From: Eubacteriaceae bacterium | GTDB lineage: Bacteria > Bacillota > Clostridia > Eubacteriales > Eubacteriaceae | DNA: 64,000 nt | Reading direction: 5' to 3' | Assembly: GCA_012522805.1 (NCBI GenBank) | Contig: JAAYJS010000025.1 | Span: 1 to 64,000, forward strand | Shown: positions 35,105-48,561 of the stretch, piece after piece | How the letters are laid out: every line of letters starts with the position of its first letter | Numbering within the stretch: the first letter of the stretch is position 1 | The notes under the pieces: generated by a model | What the model saw: the letters and a program-made list of their open reading frames with translations, nothing else | Databases searched by the model: none | What the model was told of the DNA's origin: nothing | Made by a program: the position numbers and the translations under genes

Positions 35105-35138
35105 GCTCTCGATTTGTAACAAAATCGAGAGCTTTTTT
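35105..35138 (+). terminator. Intrinsic terminator of the V-ATPase operon
   Basis: Perfect 11-bp stem GCTCTCGATTT (35105-35115) / AAATCGAGAGC (35122-35132), 6-nt loop, then six T residues. Confidence 0.93.
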
Positions 35139-35893: not shown

Positions 35894-35954
35894 ATGATTT
35901 TGCATGACTTATGCGAACCCTAATGATATCATGAACAAAACGAACAGGGAAAAA

Positions 35955-36212
35955 ATGAAAAAACAAAACAATGTTGTCTATATCTTAAAATGTGCCGATG
36001 GTAGTTTTTATACCGGTTGGACGAACAATTTAGAAAAACGCCTAAAAGCCCACAACGAAGGGAAGGCTTCCAAATATACAAGGGCGCGTTTACCGGTGAC
36101 TTTGGCCTATCGTGAAGTCTTTGAAACCAAAGTTGAGGCGATGAAAAGAGAATATGAAATAAAAACCTATACCAGAAAAGCAAAAGAAGCCTTGATAACA
36201 GGAAAAGGATAA
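35955..36212 (+). CDS. GIY-YIG domain protein (YhbQ/YazA-like, UPF0213)
   Basis: This small protein of about 85 residues is a single GIY-YIG nuclease-like domain: VVYILKCADGSFYTGWTN, then LEKRLKAHNEGKASKYTRAR. Members are proposed DNA-structure nucleases; activity is not proven here. The frame is open from 35904, but ATG 35955 gives the usual start. It is 4 bp upstream of the DNA methyltransferase gene and probably heads a seven-gene run through mutS2. Confidence 0.85.
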   Translation: MKKQNNVVYILKCADGSFYTGWTNNLEKRLKAHNEGKASKYTRARLPVTLAYREVFETKVEAMKREYEIKTYTRKAKEALITGKG

Positions 36213-36216
36213 CAGC

Positions 36217-38250
36217 ATGGATCGCTTGATAAAAGAACTCAAAAGAATATACACGCGTTACTTATTTTTTCATCAAGAAGAAGAAATGGTTTTATTTTTG
36301 ATGAAATGTGTCACTTTGAAGTGGTTATGTGATCATCGTTTAATGGTCATAGACGAGGAAACGCGCCGTAGGATTCAAAATGACTTTACGGTTCCTACAT
36401 TCATGTCCTTGTGGAGCAAAAAAGCACGTCGGGATATCACTTTTTATCGTGAAGAACGATTAATGCTCTCCGATACGATGTGGGGGGTGGTCCGTCAAAT
36501 TTTGGAGTTTGAGTTTGATTTCTCCAAGTACCCTTCAGAATCATTGGCTGAAATCTACGAAGCGTTATTGCCGCCGGTGGGCAAAAGGGCAAAGGGTGCC
36601 TTCTATACGCCACAACCCCTAGCACAATTGATGGCGAAGATGTTGTTTTCAAAGATAGAACCCAATCCAAAGGCATCGCTTAAGGTGTTAGATCCTGCTT
36701 GTGGTGGCGGCCAATTGCTATCCGCCGTTTACGACCAAATGATGTCGACTGTTTTTATAGATGAACCTCAAAAAGGCCACCAACTTTTGTTGGAAAACAT
36801 TTTACACGGATGGGATACAGAACCCTTGTCTGTTTTGGTATCCTCTTTGGTATTGGTTTTAAAATCGGATCGTTATGTGTCGCCGCGCCATATCGTGCAA
36901 GGGGACGCCTTGTTTATGCCCGATAACCACGAGATCGATCACTCTTTTGATTGCATCATCGGCAATCCACCCTATGTGGGCCATAAAGAAATTGACAGAA
37001 ATTACAGTGAACAATTGAGACAAAAGTATGCCCCTGTGTATTCAGATAAAGCGGATATTTCTTATTGCTTCTTTATGTTGGGGGAACAACTGTTAAAAAA
37101 GAGCGGTCAACTGCTTTTTTTAACCTCCAGATATTTTATGGAAGCCCATTACGGCGTAGCCTTGAGAGAGTATATCACCGACCATTTTACCATCAAGATG
37201 TTGATCGATTTTAACGGTGTGCGCCCCATCGATAGAGTAGGCATCGATCCGGCGATCATTCAATTAAAAAAGGATCAAAACGATACATCGACTTTTATTA
37301 CAAAACGCTTGGATTACACCACCGGCGCTACAAACGATCGCATGATTGAAGACTTGAAAAAACAAACCGGCTGTTATTATAGCACCATCATCACCGAACA
37401 AAAGAAACTGGATGCCAAGGTGTGGCGCATTCACGATGAGATGACATCCGGAATCGTTAAAAAAATTGAAGAGAAATCTCTTTTTTATCTTGAAGATCTA
37501 GTCGATAGCTTTCAAGGGATCATTACCGGATGCGATAAAGCATTCGTATTGAAAGCGGAGGACGAAAGTGATGCGCTCTTAAAACAGCCTTATATTCACC
37601 CATGGATCAAAAACAAAGATGTCCATGCCTATGGAATCGATACCCCTCAACTGGCAGCGATCTATACCAACGAAATACAGGATATTAAAGAATACCCTGT
37701 CTTGGAAGAAAGATTGTTGCCTTATCGAGAGGCTTTGATGAGAAGACGTGAAACCCAAAGGGGTACGCTCCCTTGGTTTCACATGCAGTGGGGTAGGGAG
37801 TTGAGCAAATTTAAAAAAACAAAAATCGTTTATCCCTACAAAGCTGCCTGCAATCGGTTTGCAATTGATCAGGATGGTTATTTATTTTCCGCCGATGTTT
37901 ACGGTATGGTTCTGAAAGAACTTTTGTATGTTCACGTAGATGAATGCTTTTTAATGTTACTTTTAAACTCACGGTTGTATACTTATTATTTCCAATCCTA
38001 TGCTAAAAAACTGGGTCAAGATCTGTACGAATATTATCCCAACACCCTGATGCGCTTGCGCATTCCGGAAGTGGAGAGCAAGCAATTGGAACGATTTCAA
38101 AACGACTATAGGCAGTACGCCAATCATATGATCGATCAATCAGAATTGGCGGAAAACTTCGAAACCTGGCTTCATGGTTTCTTTGAACTGAGCCGTAAGG
38201 AAAGTGCCCTGGTATTAAAGGAAACAAGCAATGCAAGAAAATATGTTTGA
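36217..38250 (+). CDS. Orphan N6-adenine DNA methyltransferase (Eco57I/TaqI-like)
   Basis: This 677-residue protein has a helical N-terminal part (1-120), then a gamma-type amino-methyltransferase core: KGAFYTPQPLAQ (about 126-137), SAM-binding VLDPACGGGQLL (157-168), GWDTEPLSV near 198 and the catalytic NPPY at 250-253. The C-terminal 250 residues resemble a TaqI-type target-recognition domain (SFQGIITGCDKAFVL, IHPWIKNKDVHAYG). No endonuclease domain is visible and no restriction gene is adjacent, so it is a solitary methylase. It lies 4 bp after the GIY-YIG gene and overlaps rarA by 20 bp. The target site cannot be read from sequence. Confidence 0.87.
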   Translation: MDRLIKELKRIYTRYLFFHQEEEMVLFLMKCVTLKWLCDHRLMVIDEETRRRIQNDFTVPTFMSLWSKKARRDITFYREERLMLSDTMWGVVRQILEFEFDFSKYPSESLAEIYEALLPPVGKRAKGAFYTPQPLAQLMAKMLFSKIEPNPKASLKVLDPACGGGQLLSAVYDQMMSTVFIDEPQKGHQLLLENILHGWDTEPLSVLVSSLVLVLKSDRYVSPRHIVQGDALFMPDNHEIDHSFDCIIGNPPYVGHKEIDRNYSEQLRQKYAPVYSDKADISYCFFMLGEQLLKKSGQLLFLTSRYFMEAHYGVALREYITDHFTIKMLIDFNGVRPIDRVGIDPAIIQLKKDQNDTSTFITKRLDYTTGATNDRMIEDLKKQTGCYYSTIITEQKKLDAKVWRIHDEMTSGIVKKIEEKSLFYLEDLVDSFQGIITGCDKAFVLKAEDESDALLKQPYIHPWIKNKDVHAYGIDTPQLAAIYTNEIQDIKEYPVLEERLLPYREALMRRRETQRGTLPWFHMQWGRELSKFKKTKIVYPYKAACNRFAIDQDGYLFSADVYGMVLKELLYVHVDECFLMLLLNSRLYTYYFQSYAKKLGQDLYEYYPNTLMRLRIPEVESKQLERFQNDYRQYANHMIDQSELAENFETWLHGFFELSRKESALVLKETSNARKYV

Positions 38251-39574
38251 GATCAACAGAAAATCCCATGAAATGCAACACGCCCCCTTAGCAAATAGAA
38301 TGCGTCCCCAAAATTTAGAGGATTTTGTAGGCCAAAGGCATTTAGTAGCCGAGGGTAAACTCCTTTATAGATTGATTAAGGCGGATCGATTGACTTCTGC
38401 AATTTTCTACGGTCCTCCGGGTACCGGAAAAACCACCTTAGCCCGTGTCATCGCTAACGAAACGCGAGCGGATTTTCACGAGCTCAACGCAGTCATGGCT
38501 GGGAAAAAAGATATAGAAAGAATTGTTCAAGTTGCCGAAAACAACTTAGGTGTTCATAACAAGCGGACCATTTTGTTCATTGACGAGATACATCGCTTTA
38601 ATAAGGCACAGCAAGATGCGCTTTTGCCTTCCGTAGAAAAAGGGCTGATCACCCTGATCGGAGCGACCACGGAAAATCCTTTTTATGAAATCAACTCACC
38701 TTTGATGTCTCGCTCAACGGCTTTTGCTTTTCAATCCATGACCGATGAAGATATTGAAGAAATCATCATGAGAGCTGTTACGGATCAAGAAAGGGGATTG
38801 GGACACTATCCATTAAGCGTAAAACCCGAAGCCATCGCACATTGGGTGATGGCGGCCAACGGGGATGTCCGCAAGGCGTTAAACGCTTTGGAATTGGCAG
38901 CCCTTACCGTAGAAAAAAACGAAGAGGGACAAATTGTCATCGACTATCCCATTGCGGTGGAATGTATCCAACAGAAAGGTGTACAATACGATAAAGCCGG
39001 AGATAATCACTACGATACCATCTCCGCTTTCATTAAAAGTGTACGAGGTTCCGATCCTGACGCAGCCTTATTTTGGTTGGCAAAAATGTTGGAAGCCGGC
39101 GAGGATCCGAATTTTATAGCCAGACGTTTGGTGATTTTAGCTTCGGAAGATATCGGCAATGCGGAACCCCAAGGTCTGGCCATGGCCGTAGCAGCCGCCC
39201 ATGCGGTGCAAATGATCGGTTTGCCGGAGGCACGACTCAATTTGGCTCAAGTGACGACATTTTTGGCCGCCTCGCCTAAGAGCAATGCCTCCTACGTAGC
39301 CATTAACCGTGCAAGCGAAGCGGTCAGAAAGCAATCCAGCGGCAAGGTCCCGGAGCATTTGAGAGACAAACACTATAGAGATCAAAGCGTTAAAGAAGAA
39401 AGGGTTTACCACTACCCCCACGATTACCCCTATCATTACTATAAACAACCCTATTTACCCGACGATATCGTTGGTAGTACTTTTTATCACCCAACGAAAT
39501 TAGGATATGAGAAAAAACTATTGCAATACTTAGAAGCGATTCAAAAGCTAGAAGAATGGAAGGACGACAGATGA
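38231..39574 (+). CDS. rarA: Replication-associated recombination protein A (MgsA/RarA)
   Basis: This 447-residue AAA+ clamp-loader-like ATPase acts at stalled replication forks. Walker [16 protein letters not shown] lies near residue 59, Walker [13 protein letters not shown] near 114, sensor 1 GATTENPF near 145 and a C-terminal tetramerisation region ([21 protein letters not shown]). Length is typical. The start lies inside the methyltransferase gene, 8 nt after AAGGA. Its stop overlaps the start of the M16C gene (ATGA). Confidence 0.96.
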
Positions 39575-42489
39575 AAATAAACGAGATCATACATGGTTTT
39601 AAATTAATTAGTCAAGAAGAAATTGAGGAGATCCAAAGCATCGGTAGAGTGTTTGAGCACGTCAAAACCGGTGCGCGTTTGGTTTCTATCCAGAATGACG
39701 ATACCAATAAAGTTTTTTACGTTGGGTTTAGAACCCCTTCAAAAAACAGCACCGGCGTTGCACATATTTTAGAACATTCCGTTTTGTGCGGATCTCAAAA
39801 GTATCCCCTAAAAGAGCCCTTTGTAGAGCTCATTAAAGGGTCATTGAATACTTTTCTCAACGCCATGACCTATCCGGATAAAACGGTCTATCCCGTTGCC
39901 AGCACCAACGACAAAGACTTTAAAAACCTCATGGATGTATATATGGATGCCGTTTTTTTCCCGAATATTTATGAAAACTCTTATGTATTCCAGCAAGAAG
40001 GATGGCATTATCACTTAGAAAACAAGGATGATGCGATTTATTATAACGGCGTGGTTTACAATGAAATGAAGGGTGTTTACTCTAATCCGGAAGAGATTTT
40101 AGACAGTGCCATGTCCAGCGCATTGTTTCCGGATACGATTTACGGATACGAATCCGGTGGCCATCCGGAGCATATCATAGACTTGACTTACGAAGACTTT
40201 ATCAATTTCCACAGCAATTTTTACCACCCCGCTAATGCTTATCTCTATCTGTATGGGGATTTGGACTTAGAAGAAAGATTAGCCTATTTGGACAGGGAAT
40301 ATTTGTCGAAATTTGAAGAAAAAGAAGTAGACAGTCGCATTGATAAGCAAAGGCCATTACACAACATTGCAGAACGTGAAGTTGCTTACCCGGTTGCAGA
40401 AACAGTTCAAGAGGAAAACAGGGACTACATCAGTGTGGGTTATGTTTTTGACCTCAATCAAAACGTTACGACCATAACGGGTTTGGAAATTTTGTTAAAG
40501 TTTTTATTGGACTCCAATGTGTCACCGCTTAAAAAAGAATTATTGGATTTAAAAATTGCCGAAGATATCGAATACAGCTTTTCCACACCTCTTAAACAAC
40601 CGTTATTTACGATAACGTTTAAAAACTCAAAAATCGAACACAAAGAGACAATTCTCAATACAATCGACAGAGTATTTGAAGAACTTTATCGCAAAGGTAT
40701 CGATAGAGAGCTGTTAAAAGCGCGCCTTCAAGCATCGGAGTTTGAAACCATCGAAGCGGAATTTGGCAACTACCCCAAGGGGCTTATTTTTGGGTTGAAT
40801 ATGCTGGAACTATGGCTTTACGGAGGCAATCCTTTCGCTTATTTAAAATACCGTGACATTTATGCAGAACTCAAAAAATGGATGGATAGCAATGGGTTCG
40901 AAGAATTGTTGAAGGAAAAACTCTTAGACAATCGCCATCGCGCTGTCGTTACCATGCGCCCCGACGAAAACTTGGGACGTCAACAAGAGGATGCTTTAAA
41001 AGAAAAGTTGCAAGCTTATAAAGAGAGTCTATCGGATTTGGAATTACAAGAACTCTTAGATGAAAATCAAAAACTAATAGAATTTCAAACAGAAACCGAT
41101 TCTCCGGAAGCTTTGGCGACAATTCCAAAATTATCCTTGAACGAAATAGAAAAAGACGCAAAAATTTATCGCATGGATGAGGTGATTTCTCAAAACGCAT
41201 ATGATATTTTCTATTATCATAGCACCGGAGATAATATCGTTTACTACAAATTGATCTTTGATACCGGTACGCTCAACTATGAAAACTTACTCTACTTAGG
41301 GATGTTCAACAAAGTGTTAACCGGCGTTTCCACAAAAAAATACCCCTATGAAACCTTAGATCGCCAAATGGACCTTTATACTGGCGGCATTTCAACCAAC
41401 ATCGATATCCATAATGATGTTAAAAATCCCGGTGGCTATAAGGGAAAATTCACGATCAAGGGTAAGGCGCTCTATGAAAATGCAGATCATCTTTTGGAAT
41501 TGATGGAGTCCATCGTCAATGAAAGCATTTTTAATGAGAGGGATCTAATTAAAGATATCTTAACGGAAGCAAAGCTGACAAAGAAAAACCAATTGCTCAA
41601 TTCAGGACATATTGCTGCTGCGCAGAGATTAAAAAGCTATGGTTCGCAAAGTGGACGTTATCTGGAATTGGTTGGTGGGTACGATTTTTATAAACAATTG
41701 GATGATATACATTGGGGAGAAGAAGATTTTGAAAGATTAACACTTCAATTCAAAGCTTTGTCAAAACATTTGTTTACCAGTCAAAATTTAACCGTCAGCA
41801 TCACCTCTCATCCCAAACATAAAGAGACCTTAATCAGAAAAACAGAGACGTTAACCAAAACCTTAAACCCGGGTACAGGAAAACACTACGCCATAGATTT
41901 GCCACAAACCGGCAATAACGAAGGTATCAAAACCAGTGGAACCGTACAGTATGTTGCCAAGGGGTTTAACATCTTGGAGCATGGGTATGCTTACCGCGGG
42001 GAGCTGATGGTGTTAAAACAATTGCTCTCCATGGAGTATTTGTGGAAACAATTGCGTGTGTTGGGCGGTGCCTACGGTGCTGTTTTTGGCGTGAGTTATA
42101 GTGGCGATCTGTATTTTACTTCCTATCGAGACCCACACTTAGCCGGTACCTTGGATGTTTATGCCAAGGCAGCTGATTTTATTAAAAACTTGGACATCGA
42201 TCAAAAAGAATTGGAAAAATATATCATCGGTTCCATCAGTCCTAAGGAAGTGCCCGTCAGCGATGCCCACAGAAGCTTTGTTGCTGAAAGTTGCTATTTT
42301 AGTGGCTTGACTGAGGATGACCTTCAAAAAGAAAGAGATGAAATGTTGGGTTGTACCCTTGCAAAGCTAAAGGATTTAACGGATATCTTTGATACATTTA
42401 ATACAACGAATCAACTATGCGTTATCGGTAACAGCGATAAAATAATGGGTCAAAAATCTATATTTGATGATTTAATCATCTTGGACTGA
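39571..42489 (+). CDS. M16C-family zinc metallopeptidase (presequence protease-like)
   Basis: This 972-residue protein consists of two large M16 halves. The inverted zinc motif HILEH (H65, E68, H69) is followed by YPLKEPFVELIKGSLNTF and the downstream Glu in YNEMKGVYSNPE, as in PreP/CYM1 enzymes that degrade peptides within a closed chamber. No signal peptide is seen, so it is cytosolic. An upstream in-frame ATG (39556) exists, but ATG 39571 lies 6 nt after GGAAGGA and overlaps the rarA stop by the common ATGA. It overlaps the next gene by 1 bp. Confidence 0.93.
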   Translation: MKINEIIHGFKLISQEEIEEIQSIGRVFEHVKTGARLVSIQNDDTNKVFYVGFRTPSKNSTGVAHILEHSVLCGSQKYPLKEPFVELIKGSLNTFLNAMTYPDKTVYPVASTNDKDFKNLMDVYMDAVFFPNIYENSYVFQQEGWHYHLENKDDAIYYNGVVYNEMKGVYSNPEEILDSAMSSALFPDTIYGYESGGHPEHIIDLTYEDFINFHSNFYHPANAYLYLYGDLDLEERLAYLDREYLSKFEEKEVDSRIDKQRPLHNIAEREVAYPVAETVQEENRDYISVGYVFDLNQNVTTITGLEILLKFLLDSNVSPLKKELLDLKIAEDIEYSFSTPLKQPLFTITFKNSKIEHKETILNTIDRVFEELYRKGIDRELLKARLQASEFETIEAEFGNYPKGLIFGLNMLELWLYGGNPFAYLKYRDIYAELKKWMDSNGFEELLKEKLLDNRHRAVVTMRPDENLGRQQEDALKEKLQAYKESLSDLELQELLDENQKLIEFQTETDSPEALATIPKLSLNEIEKDAKIYRMDEVISQNAYDIFYYHSTGDNIVYYKLIFDTGTLNYENLLYLGMFNKVLTGVSTKKYPYETLDRQMDLYTGGISTNIDIHNDVKNPGGYKGKFTIKGKALYENADHLLELMESIVNESIFNERDLIKDILTEAKLTKKNQLLNSGHIAAAQRLKSYGSQSGRYLELVGGYDFYKQLDDIHWGEEDFERLTLQFKALSKHLFTSQNLTVSITSHPKHKETLIRKTETLTKTLNPGTGKHYAIDLPQTGNNEGIKTSGTVQYVAKGFNILEHGYAYRGELMVLKQLLSMEYLWKQLRVLGGAYGAVFGVSYSGDLYFTSYRDPHLAGTLDVYAKAADFIKNLDIDQKELEKYIIGSISPKEVPVSDAHRSFVAESCYFSGLTEDDLQKERDEMLGCTLAKLKDLTDIFDTFNTTNQLCVIGNSDKIMGQKSIFDDLIILD

Positions 42490-43814
42490 TGAACAAAAAA
42501 ACCATTATCATCCTCATGATCTTGTCGCTATGGTTAATGGGCCCCCTTCATGTGAAAGCTGACCGCATCGACGACCATCTCTTTGATCCAAAAGAAGGTG
42601 TTTTGATCCTAGAAGAAAGAAGTGGGGATCGCTTATATGAAAAGGGTGCGGGTCAGCGTTACTATCCTGCCAGCACCACTAAATTAGTAACCGCTTTGGT
42701 GGTCTGTGAAGAGATATCGGATTTCAATGAGAAAGTAACAGTAGGCGAGGAAATAAAGAATTTGGATCCGGAAAGTTCGGTAGCAGACCTTGAGGTTGGT
42801 GAAAGCCTAACTTATATGGACTTGTTGTATGGGCTGATGCTCCCCTCAGGTAACGATGCGGCTTTAGTTTTAGCCCATCACATCGGGCTGAGAACCAACT
42901 CTCAAAATCCTGTTGATGGTTTTGTCACATTGATGAATCGCAAAGTAGAAAACCTGGGCTTATCCAACACGCACTTCGAAAATCCCCACGGCTTACATCA
43001 CCCCAAGCACTACACCACTCCGGAAGACCTAGCGATCATCGCGCAAGAAAGCTTTTCTTCTAAAATCTTACTAAAAATCATCAACACGCCGCATTATAGC
43101 TGCTCCGGATTGAACGGTAAACAACATCAATGGTACAATTCGAATCTTCATTTATTTGCCGATAAAATACCCCCGGTATATGACCGAAAAGGTGAGTATC
43201 TTGGAAAGAACCCCTTCTATAACCCCACGATATGGGGTGGGAAAACCGGTTTTACAGACGAAGCGGGTCGTTGCTTTGTTTTTTTAAGTCAAATCAGAAA
43301 CATGGAAATCATCGGTGTATTATTGGGAGCGGATGATAAAACCGGCATATTTGTTCAAAGCAACGCCGTTACCGAGAATGTTGATAAATCATACACATTG
43401 TTGGATTGGAACAATATTTTGGAGAAAAAAAATCAATCGGTCCTCAATCCGAGAAGCGAAAGAGATGCATGGTTGCGCCTGCAAACAGACGAAGATCTAC
43501 GGAGCTGTTTGTCCGAATCGGAAAAGCGTCGCTATCAATTGGATTATAAGTGGGACGATACGTATTGTTACGAGACAGAAGGCCAATTGCGTTTAAACAG
43601 ATCTATAACCAGAGGGGCTATTGTCGGCGAAGGGATCGTACAAGTGGACAACCGGGAAGTTAAACGCTTCCCTCTTATCAGTTCAGAAACAATCAGCAAA
43701 AGAACATGGGCATCGATTTTAAAAGATGTTTTTTTAAAAGTCCACAGTATCCTCATTTTAGATACATTTCCCATCGGAACCAATGTATCCACTTCAAGAA
43801 AGGTGGTTGTATGA
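42489..43814 (+). CDS. D-alanyl-D-alanine carboxypeptidase (DacF-type)
   Basis: This 441-residue penicillin-binding protein trims the terminal D-Ala of peptidoglycan stems. A signal peptide (residues 1-24, with a KADR cleavage region) precedes the serine peptidase S11 domain with S62-x-x-K65 (YPASTTK), S120-G-N122 (LPSGND) and K251-T-G253 (GGKTGFTDEAG). The C-terminal region ends with a hydrophobic stretch suited to membrane attachment. The start codon shares a base with the upstream stop (TGATG), and the stop overlaps the U32 gene (ATGA). Confidence 0.93.
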   Translation: MNKKTIIILMILSLWLMGPLHVKADRIDDHLFDPKEGVLILEERSGDRLYEKGAGQRYYPASTTKLVTALVVCEEISDFNEKVTVGEEIKNLDPESSVADLEVGESLTYMDLLYGLMLPSGNDAALVLAHHIGLRTNSQNPVDGFVTLMNRKVENLGLSNTHFENPHGLHHPKHYTTPEDLAIIAQESFSSKILLKIINTPHYSCSGLNGKQHQWYNSNLHLFADKIPPVYDRKGEYLGKNPFYNPTIWGGKTGFTDEAGRCFVFLSQIRNMEIIGVLLGADDKTGIFVQSNAVTENVDKSYTLLDWNNILEKKNQSVLNPRSERDAWLRLQTDEDLRSCLSESEKRRYQLDYKWDDTYCYETEGQLRLNRSITRGAIVGEGIVQVDNREVKRFPLISSETISKRTWASILKDVFLKVHSILILDTFPIGTNVSTSRKVVV

Positions 43815-46180
43815 AAAAAATTGAATTACTGGCACCGGCAGGTGACAGGGCATCGGTGCTGGCAGCCATTAACGGCGGTGCCGATGCTGTTTATGTCGGA
43901 GAAAAAAGCTTTTCTGCCAGAAGGCGAGCCGGAAATTTCAGTTTAAAAGAACTAAAAGACATACTAACGCTTTGCCACAGCCAAGGTGTCAAGGTCTATT
44001 TGGCTATAAATATTTTAATAAAAGATTCAGAGTTTGAGGAAGTCATCGAAACTCTAAACCACCTCGGCAATATGGGCATTGACGGACTGATTCTCCAAGA
44101 TTTGGGGCTCATTGAACTTATACGCAATCACTATCCTATGTTTTCAATGCAAACCAGCACCCAAGGTTCGGTCTATGGACTACAAGGTGTAAAATATTTT
44201 GAAAATTTAGGCTTTCAACGCGTCGTCCTTCCGCGGGAAATGCCCATAAAAGAAATAGCTCGGATTCGAGAAGAGACCGCAATTGAATTAAAGATTTTTA
44301 TTCATGGCGCACTGTGTTACGCCTATTCCGGCCAATGTTTGATGAGCGCTTTAATTGGCGGTCGGTCGGGCAACAGAGGTTTGTGCGCACAACCTTGCAG
44401 AAAAAATTATACACTGTATGATAAACACGGCAAGTTTGTCAAATCCGGTACCCTGATCAGCACAAAGGATTTAAATACCTTGGACCATATTCAGGAGATC
44501 GTCGCAGCGGGTGTGGATGCTTTAAAAATCGAAGGACGGATGAAACAACCTGCCTATGTGTATGCGGTGACCCAAGCTTATCGCAATGCCTTGGAGGGCA
44601 AGCCAGTAGATACGAACATGGCCATAAAAATGGTGTTCAATAGAGATTTTACCTCCGGTTTATTATTTGAGGATACGCAGACACTCAATCAGCAGATAGC
44701 CAAAAACAAAGGGCGCTATATCGGTATTGTGGAAGTGAGTGATCCAAATAAACTGGTGCTGCGTTTAAAGAAAGGCGAAACCTTACAACTGGGAGATGGC
44801 ATCGCCTTTGGACAAGATCAAAAAATCGGTGGGATGGTTGAACGCCTAGAAAACATGCCTTCGGGGTGTGTGGCTTTGCCGCCTAATTCGAGAGTTCTAA
44901 AGCAAATGAAAGTTTTTAAAACCAAGGATGAAGCCCTAGAATCAACACTGACAAAAGCAGCATTGAAGCCCATTTCTATTCCGAAACAACCATTATCACT
45001 CCATTTAGTTCTGAGAGAAGGACAACCGATTGATGTACAAGTGTTGGGAGACTTAGGACTGAACTTTGAGGTTCCCATTTTTCCCCAAGAAGCGCGAAAC
45101 CGCTCGATTGATCTGAAATTCATTGAAAACCAATTGGAGAAATTAGGGGACACACCCTATACTCTTAAAACATTAACAGTCGATTTAGAAGAAGGACTTT
45201 TTCTTAAAAAGAGTGAACTCAACGCCGTAAGAAGAGAAATTGTAAGTAGGTTAAGGGATAACAGAAAAAAAGAAAAAATACAATATCCAACCTATCGAGC
45301 GGAAGACATTCTCCCCAAAAGGCGTATCAGGAGCATATCGGATGTGCAGCTCAAAAAACAATTATCCTTGGAATTAAGAGATAGCATCCAACTGGATCAC
45401 CTACCTGATGTTGATTTAGACGAAGTGGTCGTACCTGTTTACGACTACAGAGATATCGAGATGATCCGTGCCAATCGTCAAGGTTTGCGCGATAAAAAAA
45501 TAGATTTAAACATCGCCTTTCCAAGGATTGTCAATACAAACACGATGGAAAAGCTGGATGACATGACAGAAGACTTAAAACGGTTAAATCCAGATCGCGT
45601 CTTGGCAAAAAATTACGACGTGTTGCATTGGCTTACAATGAGAAAACTAGCCCCTATTCAAGGGGATAGCTCTTTGAATATCTTTAACAATCTGGCCATC
45701 GATCATTTGGAAAAAGACGGAGTGGCATCCGTCGTATTATCCATGGAGTTGGAATACGCACAAATTCAAAAAATGACAGAAGTATTGCGTAAGGGTTTCA
45801 GGTATACTTTGCCGGTATATGGCTATAGTGAGATGATGGTAACCGATCATTGCCCCTTCGCATGTAAAGAGCGGCAGTGTGACCATTGTCAATTGATAAC
45901 CGGTGCCCGCTTAAGGGACGAAAAGAATCAAGATTTTCTTCTTTACAAGGATCCTTTACAGCATATTCATCTGTACAATTCTCACGTGTTTGCCTTGTAT
46001 CGGGAATTGAATCGCCTGCCTTATTGTGATGAGTGGCGCATTTATTGGACAAAGGAAAAAAGATCGGAGATAGAAAATATTATTTTAGAATATCGCAAAG
46101 ATCAACCCTGGAAATCGGATCGATGGATCAAGGCATTGCCCAATCGAACGAGGGGTTTAATACATAGAGGAGTTCATTAA
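43811..46180 (+). CDS. U32-family peptidase-like protein with DUF3656 (RlhA-like)
   Basis: This 789-residue protein begins with the U32 domain: MKKIELLAPAGDRASVLAA, GGADAVYVG, then HGALCYAYSGQCLMS and GNRGLCAQPCR with conserved cysteines. A DUF3656-like middle region and a C-terminal Cys cluster (DHCPFACKERQCDHC near residue 680) follow. Related U32 proteins in E. coli act in tRNA/23S rRNA hydroxylation (TrhP, RlhA), and the cysteines may hold an Fe-S centre; function here is inferred. The frame is open from 43706, but ATG 43811 with AGGTGG matches the family start. Confidence 0.9.
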   Translation: MKKIELLAPAGDRASVLAAINGGADAVYVGEKSFSARRRAGNFSLKELKDILTLCHSQGVKVYLAINILIKDSEFEEVIETLNHLGNMGIDGLILQDLGLIELIRNHYPMFSMQTSTQGSVYGLQGVKYFENLGFQRVVLPREMPIKEIARIREETAIELKIFIHGALCYAYSGQCLMSALIGGRSGNRGLCAQPCRKNYTLYDKHGKFVKSGTLISTKDLNTLDHIQEIVAAGVDALKIEGRMKQPAYVYAVTQAYRNALEGKPVDTNMAIKMVFNRDFTSGLLFEDTQTLNQQIAKNKGRYIGIVEVSDPNKLVLRLKKGETLQLGDGIAFGQDQKIGGMVERLENMPSGCVALPPNSRVLKQMKVFKTKDEALESTLTKAALKPISIPKQPLSLHLVLREGQPIDVQVLGDLGLNFEVPIFPQEARNRSIDLKFIENQLEKLGDTPYTLKTLTVDLEEGLFLKKSELNAVRREIVSRLRDNRKKEKIQYPTYRAEDILPKRRIRSISDVQLKKQLSLELRDSIQLDHLPDVDLDEVVVPVYDYRDIEMIRANRQGLRDKKIDLNIAFPRIVNTNTMEKLDDMTEDLKRLNPDRVLAKNYDVLHWLTMRKLAPIQGDSSLNIFNNLAIDHLEKDGVASVVLSMELEYAQIQKMTEVLRKGFRYTLPVYGYSEMMVTDHCPFACKERQCDHCQLITGARLRDEKNQDFLLYKDPLQHIHLYNSHVFALYRELNRLPYCDEWRIYWTKEKRSEIENIILEYRKDQPWKSDRWIKALPNRTRGLIHRGVH

Positions 46181-48561
46181 TGGATAAAAGAAGCATGCGT
46201 GTTTTGGAATTACATAAAATTCAAGAAAAATTGAAAGAATTCTGTAAAACCGGTGGGGGAAGACTAAAAGCTGAAAACATGTTGCCTATGTTAGAGACTT
46301 ATTTGGTGCAAGAAAGTTTGGAATCCACCGATGAAGCCTTACAGATGACATTGCGCAACGGAACCCCGCCCATTGCCGATGTTTTTGATGTAAAAGACTA
46401 TTTAAAAAGAGCGGAGATTGGCTCTACTCTGAGTTTCAAAGAGTTTCTCCGTATCGCGTCGATGCTCAAGGTATGCGAAGATGTCCAAGAATATTTTGAC
46501 GAAGATTTGGAGATCGGAAGCCTAAACTATCTGATTGACTATCGCGACAATATGGTGGATTGTAAGGATATTATCAAGGAAATTCAAAAGTCTATTCTCA
46601 GTGAATCGGAAATAGCGGACGATGCATCGCCGGAGCTGAAACGGATTCGTCACGAAATACAATTTAAAAACAGACGTATTAACGACGTGTTAGAGAGGAT
46701 CCTCAATTCTCAAGCTAACGAGAAGGCATTACAAGAAAAGATTGTAACTTTAAGGAGCAATCGCTACGTCATACCCGTTAAACAAGAGTATCGTTCACAA
46801 ATTAAAGGACATGTTTTAGATCGGTCTGCCTCCGGGGCTACTTTATTTATAGAACCGAGTCAAGTGGTTGAATTGAATAATGAATTGCGTTTGTTGGAAA
46901 TAGACGAAGATGTAGAAATTCAGCGCATTTTAATCGTATTGGGATCAGAGATTGCACTGCACCAAGAAGATATATTGGAAAATTACCGCTCGCTGATTGA
47001 ATTGGATTTCATTTTTGCAAAGGCTGCTTACGCTTTAGAAATCTACGCGACAAAACCCAAGCTGACAGAGAGCAAACACTTTTATCTGAAAAAGGCACGC
47101 CACCCCTTATTGGATCCTAAAACCGTCGTAGCTTCGGATATTTACATGCATACCGAAATTAACACCTTGGTCATTACCGGTCCCAACACCGGGGGTAAAA
47201 CCGTTACTTTAAAAACCATAGGTCTTTTAATTTTAATGGTTAAATGCGGGATGTTTATACCGGTGCAAGAAGGTTCTACAGTACATCTGTACAATCGAGT
47301 GCTGGCAGATATCGGCGACGAACAGAGTATCGAACAAAGCCTATCGACATTCTCCGCGCATTTGACCAATATCGTCCGAATTTTAAAAGTGGCCGATGAG
47401 GATTCCTTGGTTCTATTCGACGAATTGGGCGCCGGAACCGACCCAACAGAAGGGGCCGCCTTGGGGATTTCCATCATTGAATATCTGAAAGAACAAAAAA
47501 TTACAACGGTGGCCACCACCCACTATAGCGAAATAAAATCCTTTGCATTGGTGACTCCGGGCGTAACCAATGCTTCTGTAGAATTCGATGTAGAAACTCT
47601 GCAACCAACGTACCGTCTGCTCATCGGATTGCCCGGTAAATCCAATGCCTTCGAAATAGCACAAAAATTGGGTTTGTCCAGCGACATCATTGACGAGGCC
47701 AGAAAGCATATCGACACGAAAAAACTGCAATTTGAAGAAGTGTTGGTCAAAATAGAAAATAAGCAACGCCAAATCGATGCACTGCACCTGAAGGCACAAG
47801 AGGAGCATCGCGCTGCTCAATTGGAAAAAGAACGGCTTGAAGAGGAAAACAAGGCATTGCGTCAATCCAGCGAAGATATGATTCTGGCTGCACAAATGGA
47901 GGCGGAAGAACTACTGTCAGAAACCAGAGAAAAGACCGAACGGATTTACCGAGAAATTCGAAAAATGCAAAATCAGGCACGGTATTTTTCTGGCTCCAAT
48001 CGAGAATTGGAGGGTCTGCGAACAGAACTCCACGATCAGGAAAGAAAAATTCGTTCCAAAAAGAAACGCAAACCGAAACCACAAAGAGTTGGTGACAAGC
48101 TGAATTTAGAGGATGTAGAAAACGGCATGCAAGTTTTTGTAGAGAGTATTCAACAAAGAGGAGAAATCTTGGATATCTTGCCGAAGGAAAAGTCTGCCAT
48201 GGTTTTCGCAGGCAGCATGAAATTAAAAGTACCCATCCATCAACTCTCTTATGTTGAAGAGACATCAAAAAAGGAACCCTTTAAAACAAATAAAAAAAGA
48301 CACAGCGTTGATAAAGCCCCCTTTGATCCAAAATTAGATATACGGGGTTTTGACAGCCAGGAAGGTGTCTTTAGAGTAGAAAAGTTTTTATCCGATGCTT
48401 TGCTGGCAAACGTCGAAGAAGTCATCATTATACACGGCAAGGGTACAGGAGTCTTGAAAACTGCCGTTCACCAATACTTAAAAGACAATAAACAAATTAA
48501 ATCTTTTCGTTTTGGCACCCCTTCAGAAGGCTCTTATGGCGCTACAGTAGTGGCGTTGTAG
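46180..48561 (+). CDS. mutS2: Endonuclease MutS2 with Smr domain
   Basis: This 793-residue protein carries MutS core and ATPase domains (Walker A GPNTGGKTVTLKT near residue 330, Walker B LVLFDELGAGTDPTEGA near 408), a long coiled coil (about 510-630) and a C-terminal Smr domain (LDIRGFDSQEG to the end, with HGKGTGVL). It lacks the mismatch-recognition domain. MutS2 family members resolve recombination intermediates, and in Bacillus MutS2 also rescues collided ribosomes. The start overlaps the U32 stop by one base. It ends the seven-gene run. Confidence 0.97.
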   Translation: MDKRSMRVLELHKIQEKLKEFCKTGGGRLKAENMLPMLETYLVQESLESTDEALQMTLRNGTPPIADVFDVKDYLKRAEIGSTLSFKEFLRIASMLKVCEDVQEYFDEDLEIGSLNYLIDYRDNMVDCKDIIKEIQKSILSESEIADDASPELKRIRHEIQFKNRRINDVLERILNSQANEKALQEKIVTLRSNRYVIPVKQEYRSQIKGHVLDRSASGATLFIEPSQVVELNNELRLLEIDEDVEIQRILIVLGSEIALHQEDILENYRSLIELDFIFAKAAYALEIYATKPKLTESKHFYLKKARHPLLDPKTVVASDIYMHTEINTLVITGPNTGGKTVTLKTIGLLILMVKCGMFIPVQEGSTVHLYNRVLADIGDEQSIEQSLSTFSAHLTNIVRILKVADEDSLVLFDELGAGTDPTEGAALGISIIEYLKEQKITTVATTHYSEIKSFALVTPGVTNASVEFDVETLQPTYRLLIGLPGKSNAFEIAQKLGLSSDIIDEARKHIDTKKLQFEEVLVKIENKQRQIDALHLKAQEEHRAAQLEKERLEEENKALRQSSEDMILAAQMEAEELLSETREKTERIYREIRKMQNQARYFSGSNRELEGLRTELHDQERKIRSKKKRKPKPQRVGDKLNLEDVENGMQVFVESIQQRGEILDILPKEKSAMVFAGSMKLKVPIHQLSYVEETSKKEPFKTNKKRHSVDKAPFDPKLDIRGFDSQEGVFRVEKFLSDALLANVEEVIIIHGKGTGVLKTAVHQYLKDNKQIKSFRFGTPSEGSYGATVVAL

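Follow-up and report, generated by a model that had tools for sequence, protein, structure and literature searches.

A CamA-family adenine DNA methyltransferase adjoining rarA in Eubacteriaceae, with CAAAAA as predicted target

The window, a 64,000-nucleotide stretch of Eubacteriaceae DNA, carries at positions 36217-38250 a gene whose product is, judged by its domains, an Eco57I/TaqI-type adenine methyltransferase (MTase). Family and motif taken jointly, this protein is very likely a solitary orthologue of CamA from Clostridioides difficile and of Awo_c14460 from Acetobacterium woodii that methylates CAAAAA. MTases of this kind are already known; what is new is that the CamA family is common and vertically inherited in the order, including a family that lacks the sporulation genes for which CamA is known. 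The locus is composed of the following features:

35105-35132, plus strand: terminator-like hairpin 3' of the V-ATPase operon (scan, consensus match only)
35904-36212, plus strand: GIY-YIG domain protein gene, 4 bp upstream of the MTase gene (PF01541, 5.6e-19)
36217-38250, plus strand: CamA-family gamma-class N6-adenine DNA methyltransferase, 677 aa (ATG start, intact ORF)
36217-36576, plus strand: N-terminal helical domain of the MTase, ~aa 1-120 (AlphaFold helices, pLDDT mostly >85; no Pfam match)
36592-37416, plus strand: catalytic domain of the MTase, with YTP at aa 130-132, SAM motif I DPACGGG (D159) and NPPY at aa 250-253 (residue mapping to CamA)
37477-38067, plus strand: target-recognition domain of the MTase (mapping, and conservation against the contacts described in PMC8187626)
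38231-39574, plus strand: rarA (MgsA-type AAA+ ATPase), overlapping the MTase gene by 20 bp (MgsA_C, 1e-65)
39556-42489, plus strand: M16C (PreP-like) peptidase gene, the third of the conserved block (M16C_assoc, 1.7e-62)
46180-48561: mutS2 (Pfam MutS_V, MSSS and Smr), several genes 3' of the MTase gene

The original prediction had described the ORF as closely spaced after the GIY-YIG gene and overlapping rarA, and both junctions were confirmed. It had also placed the gene upstream of mutS2, which does lie downstream but is separated from it by several genes. The hairpin is strongly terminator-like and stands immediately past the V-ATPase operon, so that the unit containing the MTase gene probably begins downstream of it. 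The MTase would be expressed from a rarA-M16 transcription unit, and presumably co-transcribed with rarA. Neighbour clustering finds rarA and the M16 peptidase gene conserved in relatives, whereas the V-ATPase genes are not, and the GIY-YIG cluster is present only at the window's own loci. The GIY-YIG protein was rejected as a functional partner of the MTase because it is confined to the window. Farther along, a D-Ala-D-Ala carboxypeptidase-like gene (42489-43814) and a U32 peptidase gene (43706-46180) overlap by ~100 bp as listed, and the true start of the latter is probably further downstream than 43706.

Pfam matches on the MTase are Eco57I (4.7e-24), N6_Mtase (8e-22) and the TaqI_C specificity domain (6.2e-11); together with residue mapping, they confirm the adenine MTase with SAM motif, NPPY and target-recognition domain that had been predicted. 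The motif-I aspartate D159 aligns with D60 of CamA, and the catalytic domain carries the minor-groove residues H256 and K257. In the recognition domain, the residues aligned to CamA base contacts are Q433, I436, R511, Q524, W525, R527 and Y541, followed by K542, S558, A559, G600, L603 and Y607. The Pfam scan reveals only methyltransferase and TaqI_C domains on the chain and no nuclease domain, and a type IIG fused restriction-modification enzyme was rejected on this ground. The AlphaFold model has a mean pLDDT of 88.7, and its helical N-terminal domain, of about 100-130 residues, is shared by the rarA-linked clade. Proteins of this clade mostly have 120-165 aa before the YTP motif; Clostridium proteins have a shorter stretch there, and those of the Clostridioides CamA group, in which the domain is short or missing, have ~25-40 aa. 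The short N-terminus of CamA is ordered only upon cofactor binding, and its SAM affinity is unusually weak (PMC8187626). The longer N-terminal domain of the rarA-linked clade may pre-order the SAM pocket. At the other end of the chain, CamA-like proteins of ~950 aa from Halonatronum (L056:3818-6667) and Orenia (L057:3611-6487) continue for ~300 residues past the position of CamA Y521, where 40-80 are usual; Pfam reveals no additional domain in the Orenia protein.

Membership of the CamA family is indicated by both sequence and fold. A phmmer search against solved structures returns C. difficile CamA as the best match (4e-80 over aa 110-636), the next family being BseCI at 1e-20. Foldseek with the AlphaFold model gives CamA chains for all of the top 33 matches (E-values to 3.8e-48, TM 0.84 by target), followed by M.BseCI at 2.5e-31. 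M.BseCI and the type IIG / BREX PglX enzymes share the gamma-class fold (Foldseek ~1e-31 and 1e-20) but reach at most ~20% identity and belong to restriction or BREX systems. CamA itself (PDB 7LNI/7LT5; PMC8187626), an orphan enzyme recognising CAAAAA and, like the window MTase, vertically inherited, is 33% identical to it; CamA differs by the lack of the ~100-aa N-terminal domain and of rarA linkage, and its studied role is in sporulation via spoIIE, a gene absent in the window organism. Closer still is Awo_c14460, which has the N-terminal domain, the same length class (~690 aa), a rarA neighbour and about 40-43% identity, although the upstream genes differ. Its motif, CAAAAA(m6A)R, is experimental (PMC6700114), whereas that of the window MTase is predicted from sequence. 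The Clostridium CAAAAAR MTases, such as CP6013_1459 of C. pasteurianum (PMC5027557), are likewise predicted lone enzymes; most orthologues fetched from this genus share the contact code of the window MTase, with a shorter N-terminus, and their genes are often located directly upstream of spoIIAA-spoIIAB-sigF instead of rarA. The suggestion that the locus is an undescribed system was therefore rejected, the enzyme being homologous to CamA and its A. woodii orthologue having an experimentally assigned motif. The comparison with CamA, originally drawn "in concept", extends to homology with nearly the same DNA-contact residues.

The CamA-DNA structure gives the residues that read CAAAAA (PMC8187626). 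Their positions were compared across an alignment of 95 distinct homologues, with the Clostridioides CamA L123, which aligns along all 577 residues with crystallised CamA, as reference. In the window MTase, 13 of the 15 base-contact residues are identical, including H256, K257, Q433, I436, R511 and Y607, and the two substitutions are S514 to G600 and I517 to L603. Two cage residues also differ (Y30 to F129 and F253 to I338). The active A. woodii enzyme carries the identical changes at both contact and both cage positions, and the window's 15-letter contact code is found in 33 of 39 rarA-linked homologues, among them L019 of A. woodii. We infer that L019 is Awo_c14460: its position, 1.68 Mb, agrees with that of gene 1446 among about 3473, and its identity to L004, the protein from the E. 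limosum group, is 49%, which matches the 48.92% similarity to Awo_c14460 published for the E. limosum B2 homologue (PMC9503626). With Awo_c14460 expressed from a plasmid, SMRT sequencing revealed CAAAAA(m6A)R, and A. woodii itself has 98.9% of its 5576 sites methylated (PMC6700114). CAAAAAR methylation has also been documented in E. limosum, where the homologue is present (PMC9503626), and in C. pasteurianum and other clostridia (PMC5027557, PMC10745947). Given the contact code identical to that of A. woodii and the methylation of CAAAAAR in relatives, the predicted target of the window MTase is very probably CAAAAA(R), with m6A on a single strand. The G/L pair at CamA positions 514/517 might go along with R at position 7, a conjecture drawn from a handful of cases.

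CamA, a protein under discussion as a drug target, has been described as rare beyond C. difficile. Its family is not rare here: an MTase of this type is present in 31 of 40 genomes of the Eubacteriaceae and in 51 of 67 of the order (E <1e-50). It adjoins rarA at all 29 relatives' loci of the family (29/29). This recurrence of relatives with ~43% identity at one position puts the observation far beyond chance. The junctions with rarA are coding overlaps or short gaps, with a 20-bp overlap in several, and the adjacency extends across families f1-f4 of the order; in f3 and f4, the two are often separated by one gene, tentatively ltaE (threonine aldolase). The vertical inheritance that the original prediction proposed to check is borne out by phylogeny: the MTase gene tree follows taxonomy (order clade 97*, Clostridiaceae 89, Clostridioides group 96*), and MTase and rarA distances are strongly correlated (Mantel r 0.90 over 34 loci, 0/2000 permutations). 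The MTase is best explained as a core gene of the order, passed on vertically. Its absence from 9 of the 40 family genomes searched indicates that it is not indispensable. The rarA-M16 pair is intact in the 8 MTase-lacking genomes with a readable locus, so that the MTase alone is missing there; such losses occurred several times, with rarA-M16 retained. At the scale of the phylum, a sample of 398 genomes (E <1e-100) yielded, besides the source genome, just one more, from the same class; the family therefore seems restricted to Clostridia with a few neighbours, reaching further in places, as at the Halonatronum and Orenia loci.

In 97.6% of pairs, conservation is higher in the recognition domain than in the catalytic one. 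Restriction-modification (RM) enzymes usually show the reverse, with a recognition domain less conserved than the catalytic one. The pattern seen here indicates selection for one fixed specificity. The window MTase has a long end branch (1.02 changes per column) and merely ~43-45% identity to its nearest relatives, as might be expected had it drifted to another specificity, or become inactive, in its lineage. This is most improbable, as the ORF is open, all catalytic motifs are present, the AlphaFold fold is confident and the contact residues match those of the A. woodii enzyme at 15 of 15 positions. Slightly less remote, yet still very unlikely, is that the MTase represents the modification half of a type II RM system, protecting CAAAAA sites from a nuclease encoded elsewhere or degenerated. 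PADLOC type II methyltransferase models do match it, REase-MTase pairs separated by some distance exist (PMC4752239), and the CRAAAAR enzyme of C. carboxidivorans is annotated as type II RM (PMC10745947). However, the genes beside the MTase at 142 loci (some redundant) have housekeeping or sporulation functions and are particular to each lineage, and no recurrent nuclease was recognised at these loci, few of the neighbours having been Pfam-scanned. Vertical inheritance and the conserved recognition domain also argue against an RM system. Moreover, CAAAAA is not depleted in the window (136 sites for 140-149 expected), and methylation in E. limosum is incomplete, at 37-84% (PMC9503626), which would be unsafe beside an active nuclease. 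The source genome (2.02 Mb, 97.8% complete) contains a single strong N6_Mtase match, the window MTase. Of two weak N6_Mtase matches, one reads, from its ORF, as RlmL, an rRNA methyltransferase, and the other as a TrmN6-like tRNA methyltransferase; the single weak N6_N4_Mtase match reads as PrmA, leaving no second DNA adenine MTase among these two families (D12-type and cytosine-5 enzymes fall outside them). HsdR was not found by profile search, and no cognate nuclease was recognised among the conserved neighbours, a search that type II nucleases matching no profile would escape. Within these tests, the claim that the enzyme has no nuclease partner holds, and the matching restriction enzyme that could have refuted it did not appear; a defence or restriction role is disfavoured, since no partner was recognised, the recognition domain is conserved and the motif is undepleted.

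An apparently orphan, vertically inherited MTase adjoining rarA through overlaps or short gaps fits a housekeeping or epigenetic role better than defence, in agreement with the original prediction. The functional link to genome maintenance that it also drew is conjectural, and only in this order is the gene tied to rarA. RarA acts at stalled replication forks, and methylation might accordingly serve genome maintenance with it, in fork rescue, repair or origin control, thereby keeping both genes together. The adjacency across families f1-f4, with overlaps or short gaps in many, and the congruent evolution of the two genes (r 0.90) are in line with such a role. It is nevertheless unlikely: Clostridioides possesses the MTase with rarA far away, rarA-M16 persists in the 8 readable family genomes that lack the MTase, other lineages have other MTase partners, and unrelated housekeeping genes commonly share operons. 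A sporulation role as in C. difficile was rejected for the family, as neither the Spo0A C-terminal domain (Spo0A_C; 0/40 family genomes including the source genome, with a positive B. subtilis control) nor full-length SpoIIE (0/40) was found. SpoIIE profile matches in family f1 (18-50 bits) cover mostly the C-terminal phosphatase part; they were taken as generic PP2C phosphatases and rejected as SpoIIE. Elsewhere in the order, 18 genomes give long SpoIIE matches; the MTase is present in some of these and missing from others.

By analogy with CamA, gene regulation at other promoters would be the most likely role, a role with RarA ranking second. According to the proposed mechanism, the solitary gamma-class MTase would methylate the final A of CAAAAA, probably within CAAAAAR, on a single strand throughout the genome; asymmetric methylation in promoters would alter the binding of a regulator or of RNA polymerase, as at the spoIIE promoter of C. 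difficile. The targets would be genes other than those of C. difficile, and other than spoIIE, since the family is devoid of Spo0A and full-length SpoIIE. Taken alone, this regulatory role is an even call. The non-coding DNA of the window shows no CAAAAA enrichment (15 sites for 13 expected), which gives no positive sign of regulatory targets and neither supports nor excludes regulation.

In other lineages, the MTase gene neighbours spoIIA-sigF, rrf2/amidase/PTS genes, or uppS. The orthologue of many Clostridium genomes is directly upstream of spoIIAA-spoIIAB-sigF, gene names being read from the sequences (L053, L054, L058-L063, L072, L136, L137 and others), and spoVAC/D/E often come next after sigF. 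The spoIIAA-spoIIAB-sigF genes represent the pathway on which CamA acts, by way of spoIIE, in C. difficile. Among the papers returned by a full-text search linking spoIIAA, DNA methyltransferase and CAAAAA, only the one on C. difficile mentions spoIIAA. At the Clostridioides locus (L123:3070-11809), camA is preceded by genes for an amidase, a GGDEF-EAL protein and an Rrf2 regulator, and followed by those for a patatin, HPr and PEP-PTS enzyme I; rarA is ~1.9 Mb away. One tentative reading, more doubtful than not, holds CAAAAA methylation by CamA-family enzymes to be a trait ancient in Clostridia, with an original role outside sporulation; it would remain tied to a genome-maintenance gene, rarA, in non-sporulating Eubacteriaceae and would have been tied separately to the sigma-F programme in Clostridium, through the spoIIAA-spoIIAB-sigF order, and in C. 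difficile, through spoIIE. The protein family of CamA is broad and vertically inherited, its recognition surface hardly varies, and its carriers include a bacterial family of acetogens and gut bacteria without sporulation regulators. This breadth bears on how specific CamA inhibitors would be, and A. woodii and E. limosum provide tractable hosts for studying the function of CAAAAA methylation outside sporulation.

Two irregular loci were observed among the relatives. In an Acetobacterium-like MAG (G006; L027 / L084), the MTase is split by an in-frame stop into parts of 464 and 217 aa, likely a pseudogene or an assembly error. At L028/L078, a 506-aa antisense ORF between the MTase gene and rarA was dismissed as an artefact of ORF picking, as tblastn puts rarA right there.
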